Of a stretch of DNA of 64,000 nt, positions 5,157 through 8,114 are shown piece by piece. The stretch is from positions 1-64,000 of the forward strand of contig WYEQ01000014.1 of NCBI GenBank assembly GCA_009904015.1, read 5' to 3'. This DNA comes from Desulfurococcales archaeon. GTDB taxonomy: Archaea; Thermoproteota; Thermoprotei_A; Sulfolobales; Fervidicoccaceae. Each line of letters begins with the position of its first letter. The first letter of the stretch is position 1. Position numbers and translations under genes: made by a program. The notes beneath the pieces are model-generated. The model did not search any database. It worked only from the letters and a program-made list of their open reading frames with translations, and was not told the origin of the DNA.

Positions 5157-5253
5157 AAAACCAAGTTCTCTATACAAGAATCCTGCCAGAAAAAGCATTG
5201 TTGAACCTAAACAACACGACAAAGAAAAGTGATTAGTGGCGGCGGGGCCCGCG

Positions 5254-5436
5254 TGGTAGCGGGGGGTGGACTTTCACGGGGGCTTAGCCCCCGTTTTGAA
5301 CCACCGACCTCGGGGTCCCTCAGAGGGGTGCTCGCCGAGGCCGGCGAGCCCTCGTATGAGCTTCGCGGGGCGAGACTCGCTCCGTCCGAGCGGGTGCCCG
5401 CTCCTCCCGCGGGCTACCTGGCTGCCCTACCCCGCT
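5254..5436 (-). tRNA. initiator tRNA-Met (CAT) with three introns and encoded CCA
   Basis: Exons assemble into a 77-nt archaeal initiator tRNA: acceptor AGCGGGG/CCCCGCT with A1-U72, D-arm GGGC-AGCCAGGTA-GCCC, anticodon stem CGGGG/CCCCG with loop CTCATAA, T-arm GGTGG-TTCAAAT-CCACC, then ACCA. Intron 1 (5362-5405, 44 nt) splits the anticodon stem between positions 30 and 31. Intron 2 (5317-5354, 38 nt) is at the canonical 37/38 site. Intron 3 (5271-5294, 24 nt) lies in the T-loop at 59/60 and is mostly a CGGGGGC/GCCCCCG hairpin. The three consecutive G-C pairs next to the anticodon loop are the initiator signature. Leader GGCGGGG (5449-5443) and trailer CCCCGCC (5247-5241) can pair. The other tRNAs in the window do not encode CCA. 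Confidence 0.95.
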
Positions 5437-5592
5437 GTTTATCCCCGCCAAAAACTCTTTTTTGGTCTAAAGGTTAAAAAATCTGTCCTACGGGCCTTTT
5501 CCTCGATTTAAGAAAAACAAGCTTGAACTAAGATAGTGATTGTTATAAAAAGCTTAATATGTTATGGAGGAAATGTTTCTAGTTAAGCTTTC

Positions 5593-8017: not shown

Positions 8018-8114
8018 TGGGGCCGCCGGGATTTGAACCCGGGACCACCAGCGCTCCGGTGGCTACGGGGAGCACCCCCAGGCTGGCATCCTAGCCAAGC
8101 TAGACGACGGCCCC
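8018..8114 (-). tRNA. tRNA-Pro (GGG) with one intron
   Basis: Acceptor stem GGGGCCG/CGGCCCC with A73, T-arm CCGGG-TTCAAAT-CCCGG and anticodon stem CCAGC/GCTGG are complete. The loop reads C-T-GGG-G, giving anticodon GGG, and an intron of about 22 nt (8054-8075) lies at the canonical 37/38 position. The intron boundary could shift by a base or two because of the G run. CCA is not encoded. Confidence 0.9.

Follow-up and report, generated by a model that had tools for sequence, protein, structure and literature searches.

Introns excised at bulge-helix-bulge (BHB) motifs are known from archaeal tRNA genes at positions 30/31, 37/38 and 59/60, with up to three introns in one gene (PMC4090602, PMC8450103, PMC4033280, PMC3218864). 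Their length is given as 11-175 nt (PMC2738675), and the mechanism by which they are gained or transposed in archaea has been described as unknown (PMC4090602). Among the closest described systems are the multi-intron tRNAs of Pyrobaculum and Thermofilum (Thermoproteales), in which as many as three BHB introns interrupt one tRNA, not only at the canonical site but also at non-canonical ones, 30/31 and 59/60 among them (PMC4090602, PMC8450103, PMC3218864). The permuted initiator tRNA of Thermofilum pendens and the split initiator tRNA of Nanoarchaeum equitans are disrupted at 59/60 and 37/38 (PMC3218864). Archaeal rRNA, finally, contains BHB introns that encode LAGLIDADG proteins such as I-DmoI and I-Tsp061I, along with short forms at the same sites that lack the endonuclease (PMC4496867, PMC2738675).

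The locus described here is an initiator tRNA-Met gene with three introns, found in a 64,000-nt stretch of a Desulfurococcales archaeon genome (contig WYEQ01000014.1), which we refer to as the window. A three-intron initiator gene is by itself of a known kind, as multi-intron archaeal tRNAs have already been reported. It differs from the multi-intron tRNAs of the Thermoproteales, however, in belonging to a different order and in being an initiator; moreover, introns at the same sites in its relatives exceed the range of 11-175 nt and encode endonuclease-like proteins, and one relative apparently has four introns. Compared with the archaeal rRNA introns, the host of these elements is a tRNA gene, and one group of proteins, at site 30/31, is encoded antisense to it.

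A three-intron initiator tRNA-Met gene

The gene spans 183 nt (5436..5254, minus strand), starting with AGCGGGGTAGGGCAGCC and ending with CCCCGCTACCA (Table 1). A first-pass annotation had placed it at the same location, leaving unstated the strand, which is the minus strand. Removal of the introns leaves a 77-nt tRNA with CCA that folds into a 7/4/5/5 cloverleaf and carries the features of archaeal initiator tRNA-Met: a CAU anticodon, an A1-U72 pair, a GGG/CCC anticodon stem, and a match to the initiators of relatives. The 74-nt spliced body has the same sequence, at 74/74 nt, as nine initiator genes without introns in relatives (L012/L127, L013, L024, L025, L067/L093, L094, L100, L140, and L141), and the same body is obtained from six intron-containing initiator genes spliced in silico, the window gene among them. 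Because of this identity, the exon boundaries do not depend on folding alone. In contrast to the initiators of T. pendens and N. equitans, the gene is neither permuted nor split: its introns lie in cis, and its exons follow one another in normal order on one strand within the 183 nt.

Table 1. Positions in the window of the initiator tRNA-Met gene, its introns and its flanking elements.
Feature	Position	Strand	Description	Basis
TATA-like box	5474..5481	-	TTTTTTAA; -45 to -38	Coincides with AT peak of 112 aligned upstream regions
Outer helix, 5' strand	5443..5449	-	GGCGGGG; 6 nt before tRNA; probable transcription start	Conserved, co-varying
Exon 1	5406..5436	-	tRNA positions 1-30: acceptor 5' strand, D arm, four anticodon-stem bases	Identity with intronless relatives
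Intron 1	5362..5405	-	44 nt, site 30/31	Relaxed BHB, bulges GG^A and AA^G; AGR...CGCGAA ends
Exon 2	5355..5361	-	Positions 31-37, including CAU anticodon	Comparison with relatives
Intron 2	5317..5354	-	38 nt, canonical site 37/38	Complete BHB
Exon 3	5295..5316	-	Positions 38-59	Comparison with relatives
Intron 3	5271..5294	-	24 nt, site 59/60, T loop	Complete BHB
Exon 4	5254..5270	-	Positions 60-76, CCA encoded	Sequence and identity with relatives
Outer helix, 3' strand	5241..5247	-	CCCCGCC	Pair probabilities 0.99-1.0; covariation
GCCA	5237..5240	-	Right after outer helix	NCCA conservation

All three junction pairs form a 4-bp Watson-Crick central helix (4/4) between 3-nt bulges. The motif of the 37/38 intron has CTCA/TGAG as its central helix, a 5-bp intron helix (GAGGG/CCCTC), and the 5-bp anticodon stem as exon helix, which is continuous only once the 30/31 intron has been removed. 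The 59/60 intron is flanked by a TTCA/TGAA central helix, a 7-bp intron helix (CGGGGGC/GCCCCCG), and an exon helix of 5 bp formed by the T stem. The 30/31 intron has a CGCG/CGCG central helix and a 2-bp intron helix that resumes past one bulged A, without an exon helix. Shuffled versions of the gene yielded complete BHB motifs at a rate of 0.005 per gene. The first-pass annotation had called an initiator tRNA interrupted at these three sites, with intron lengths of 44, 38 and 24 nt, and both the identity and the introns were upheld by the initiator features, the 74/74 identity and the motifs. Its expectation of a BHB structure at every junction held in full for 37/38 and 59/60, whereas the 30/31 junction falls short of a full hBHBh' motif.

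Two splicing-endonuclease genes (PF01974) of unequal size, encoding 192 and 163 aa, are present in the genome, and from this gene number an (alpha-beta)2 enzyme that accepts relaxed motifs is to be expected. Such a crenarchaeal-type subunit pair would cut the three BHB motifs, after which the exons would be ligated. The 30/31 intron would presumably leave first, which would complete the 37/38 motif with its exon helix, and the T-loop intron would be removed independently. The minimum-energy fold of the whole unspliced precursor at 37 °C did not show the cloverleaf, which may reflect either a limit of such predictions or sequential splicing.

Only one initiator copy was found in the 1.33-Mb assembly, both with a head pattern that allowed 3 mismatches and with a T-arm pattern that allowed 1; a separate elongator-type Met tRNA gene and an ordinary RNase P RNA are also present. 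Neither an ARAGORN run nor an Rfam search reported the initiator gene, as had been anticipated for simple searches, and the second intact initiator gene that would have cast doubt on this one was not found in the 92%-complete assembly. At a relaxed threshold, Rfam gave weak H/ACA-like matches on the GC-rich block, all of them far below threshold. That the block is instead a spacer or a different structured RNA, the tRNA being a construct of our parsing, is hardly credible in view of the 74/74 identity with intronless genes and of intron sites common to relatives. The incompleteness of the assembly leaves some room for an intact initiator gene in an unassembled part of the genome, in which case the locus would be a decaying, unexpressed copy. 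With a perfectly conserved mature sequence, three motifs that form, a fitting promoter position and no other copy found, we regard this as very improbable. The window gene is probably a functional initiator tRNA-Met gene and the only one in the genome.

Elsewhere in the window, ARAGORN reported a tRNA with an unassigned anticodon (8018-8114), which resembles tRNA-Pro(GGG) with a 37/38 intron.

Recurring intron sites and their endonuclease genes

The relatives examined comprised 59 genomes of the same family and order and 101 DNA stretches from a collection scan. The loci of the scan carry the names Desulfurococcales, Acidilobaceae, Ignisphaera, Pyrodictiaceae and Sulfolobales; their order is not Thermoproteales, and we take it to be the one that GTDB calls Sulfolobales. 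Among 118 distinct complete initiator genes, 72 had no intron, 31 had one, 7 had two, 7 had three, and 1 had four. The introns thus show the patchy occurrence at fixed sites that is expected of mobile introns, with 46 genes interrupted at the same few positions: 14 at 30/31, 33 at 37/38, 8 at 39/40 and 15 at 59/60, counts that do not represent frequencies for the order because genes whose first exon is uninterrupted were more readily picked up by the pattern scan. Whether short or long, all 14 introns at 30/31 start with AGR and end with CGCGAA; their 4-bp central helix is identical in 13/14 as parsed, and the remaining one (L086) also ends with CGCGAA.

Several arrangements among these genes stood out. 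The initiator gene of L105 has four apparent introns (31, 25, 29 and 187 nt), against a reported maximum of three for archaeal tRNAs. An intron at 39/40 was in all eight cases (L101, L090, L105, L142, L144, L146, L151 and L173) accompanied by one at 37/38, and in 7/8 the end of the 37/38 intron provides the pairing partner for the 3-bp junction helix of the 39/40 intron, which suggests that the latter is spliced first. Insertions of 139-242 nt at 37/38 in L050, L074 and L124 contain the outer-helix partner (see below) near their start and a TATA-like sequence further on, and may therefore be adjacent split halves instead of introns.

Long introns (0.7-1.6 kb) were found at three of the sites: 4 at 30/31 (1289-1575 nt), 7 at 37/38 (1052-1616 nt), and 5 at 59/60 (712-785 nt). 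All contained a complete or broken homing-endonuclease ORF, except for one of 1616 nt at 37/38 in L098, which carries an ATPase_2/DUF234 gene. It is the one long intron from the window's own family that was read end to end, and it has no endonuclease. The proteins encoded at 30/31 are ~360-380 aa long and antisense to the tRNA, while those at 37/38 (311-391 aa) and 59/60 (~218 aa) are encoded in sense; L142 and L172 have an intact 59/60 protein, and in L115 and L162 it is broken. Proteins from one site are more alike than proteins across sites, giving a separate group for each site.

The 59/60 protein matched Pfam LAGLIDADG_3 (E 8.6e-14), and the 30/31 and 37/38 proteins gave LAGLIDADG matches below the cut-off only. 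PDB sequence searches with the endonuclease profiles returned nothing significant, but the predicted folds did match. For the 30/31 and 37/38 proteins, structures were predicted with a mean pLDDT of 84 and 85; the best PDB match of the former was I-Tsp061I (E 3.5e-4), a partial match with a TM of 0.29 over the query, and that of the latter I-DmoI (E 3.6e-5). Endonuclease genes are thus found inside the introns of relatives at all three sites, whereas the window's own introns (24-44 nt) contain no endonuclease sequence and no trace of a coding region. In L172 (genome G008), exon 1 of the initiator lies on the opposite strand from the rest, around a 30/31-type endonuclease gene at the start of the contig, which is either an inversion or a misassembly.

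Because the long introns of relatives at the same sites encode LAGLIDADG-like proteins, the introns of the window are plausibly mobile introns without an endonuclease. A direct comparison is offered by L142 and L173, two near-identical loci whose 37/38 proteins agree at 95.8% and which have the leader and the first part of the trailer in common: their 59/60 introns have the same ends, but one measures 778 nt with an endonuclease and the other 33 nt without. This pair, the shared ends of the 30/31 introns and the parallel with the rRNA introns lead us to read the window's introns as endonuclease-less forms. The sites 30/31, 37/38 and 59/60 would then be places where mobile introns with LAGLIDADG homing endonucleases, presumably active in homing, have inserted repeatedly, and the 44-, 38- and 24-nt introns would descend from such elements by loss of the endonuclease. 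Against such a descent, for which the argument is one of analogy, stand the window's introns themselves, which have kept no endonuclease sequence, and the long intron of L098 with its ATPase gene.

The three-intron initiator could also be genuine while its short introns were copied between tRNA genes, with endonucleases invading some of them later. Transposition of small BHB introns between tRNA genes has been proposed for Thermoproteales (PMC4090602), and it would fit the clear excess of short over long introns at each of the sites, as well as the window's introns being free of endonuclease remnants. A separate endonuclease group at each site would not be expected from such copying, nor would near-identical loci that differ in the presence of an endonuclease within an intron with the same ends, and we consider this course of events rather unlikely. 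Descent from mobile introns remains the reading that we follow here.

An outer helix around the initiator tRNA

In archaeal pre-rRNA, leader and trailer form processing stems, long-range helices that close the precursor RNA. The window gene is enclosed by a helix that differs from these in being only 7 bp long, in having no BHB, in its NCCA end, and in starting at the predicted transcription start. Pairing between leader and trailer had been pointed out in the first-pass annotation and proved well founded, since the 7 bp pair with a probability of 0.99-1.0 and co-vary across the order. In most initiator genes, the helix is positioned exactly 6 nt before the tRNA. Among 106 genes, the trailer contained the exact complement of the gene's own leader in 48/60 of those with the commonest leader and in 31/46 of those with other leaders; when the other leaders were compared with trailers of genes with a different leader, an exact complement was found in 199/4656 cases (4%). 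Co-varying helix types include GGGGCCG/CGGCCCC, GGGGGGC/GCCCCCC, GGAGGGT/ACCCTCC, GGTAGGG/CCCTACC and GGCGGAG/CTCCGCC. The helix is followed by RCCA in 61/79 genes and by TCCA in 3 more, and its partner strand is absent in some lineages of the order. Across 112 upstream regions of initiator genes, an AT peak lies at -45 to -39, which points to transcription starting close to the first G of the outer helix; in the window, transcription probably starts at 5449, where the helix begins.

Thirty initiator genes from other orders had no conserved outer helix, and AT-rich 7-bp chance matches occurred in 3 of the 30; the helix was accordingly rejected as a phylum-wide feature. It was likewise rejected as a trait of A1-U72 tRNAs, as six intact A1-U72 tRNA-Gln genes of the same order lack it. 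The other tRNAs of the genome have AT-rich leaders, with two GC-rich exceptions, namely the tail of a split tRNA-Gln and a leader hairpin of tRNA-Tyr. A GGGGGG leader near the isoleucine/methionine tRNA of the genome was considered as an instance of the same helix and dismissed, since it is the trans-pairing tail of the split tRNA-Gln. Because the helix is missing from the other tRNAs of the genome, the intact tRNA-Gln genes and the 30 initiators of other orders, it is thus, as far as tested, specific to initiator genes of this order. By closing both ends of the precursor, it would protect the precursor or guide the processing of its ends, a role that we offer as a guess.

Several tRNA loci with unusual flanks or separated halves were observed alongside. 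The tRNA-Tyr gene (L208, contig C35 of the same genome; C1 start) has its GC-rich leader hairpin unlike other elongator tRNAs. The tRNA-Gln(UUG) of the genome is apparently trans-split at 37/38 (L203 and L292; contig C2 near 16125, minus strand, and 12699, plus strand), with a 5' and a 3' half on opposite strands, ~3.4 kb apart, that carry 16-bp complementary tails. Split tRNA-Gln genes seemingly occur in several relatives as well (L286, L287, L288, L298 and L300; 3' halves L253-L255, L258, L270, L271 and L276). In genome G018, the initiator itself is split at 37/38 over two contigs (L174 and L220) with 14-bp complementary tails, and the outer-helix partner GCCCCCCACCA comes after its 5' half. 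In two genomes of the same family (L177 in G006 and L178 in G004), the initiator 5' half stops at 30/31. Behind it come a tail resembling an intron, a run of T and then unrelated genes. These initiators are apparently split, but no convincing 3' half turned up when G004 and G006 were searched for one.

Implications for intron gain and initiator maturation

Taken as a whole, we consider it likely that the window holds a functional, sole initiator gene spliced at BHB motifs, with short, endonuclease-less introns at sites recurrently used by mobile introns, and with an outer helix that serves protection or processing. We lean, with some reserve, towards the wider proposal that three distinct LAGLIDADG groups target the initiator gene of this order for homing, at three sites, that loss of the endonuclease gives rise to the short introns, and that the order-wide outer helix with its NCCA end is a new processing or protection element. 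A literature search covering papers outside subscription access found no report of endonuclease genes inside archaeal tRNA introns, which does not prove novelty. In the literature searched, initiator introns that recur at three sites with endonuclease genes in relatives appear unreported, as does the outer helix.

Since the gene is essential and apparently single-copy, every cell of the lineage would need three splicing events to start translation. The findings suggest that mobile introns have settled repeatedly in the initiator tRNA. If true, the endonuclease genes inside initiator introns would provide a mechanism for the gain of archaeal tRNA introns that is testable in vitro, and the outer helix would be a new, easily mutated candidate element of initiator tRNA maturation.
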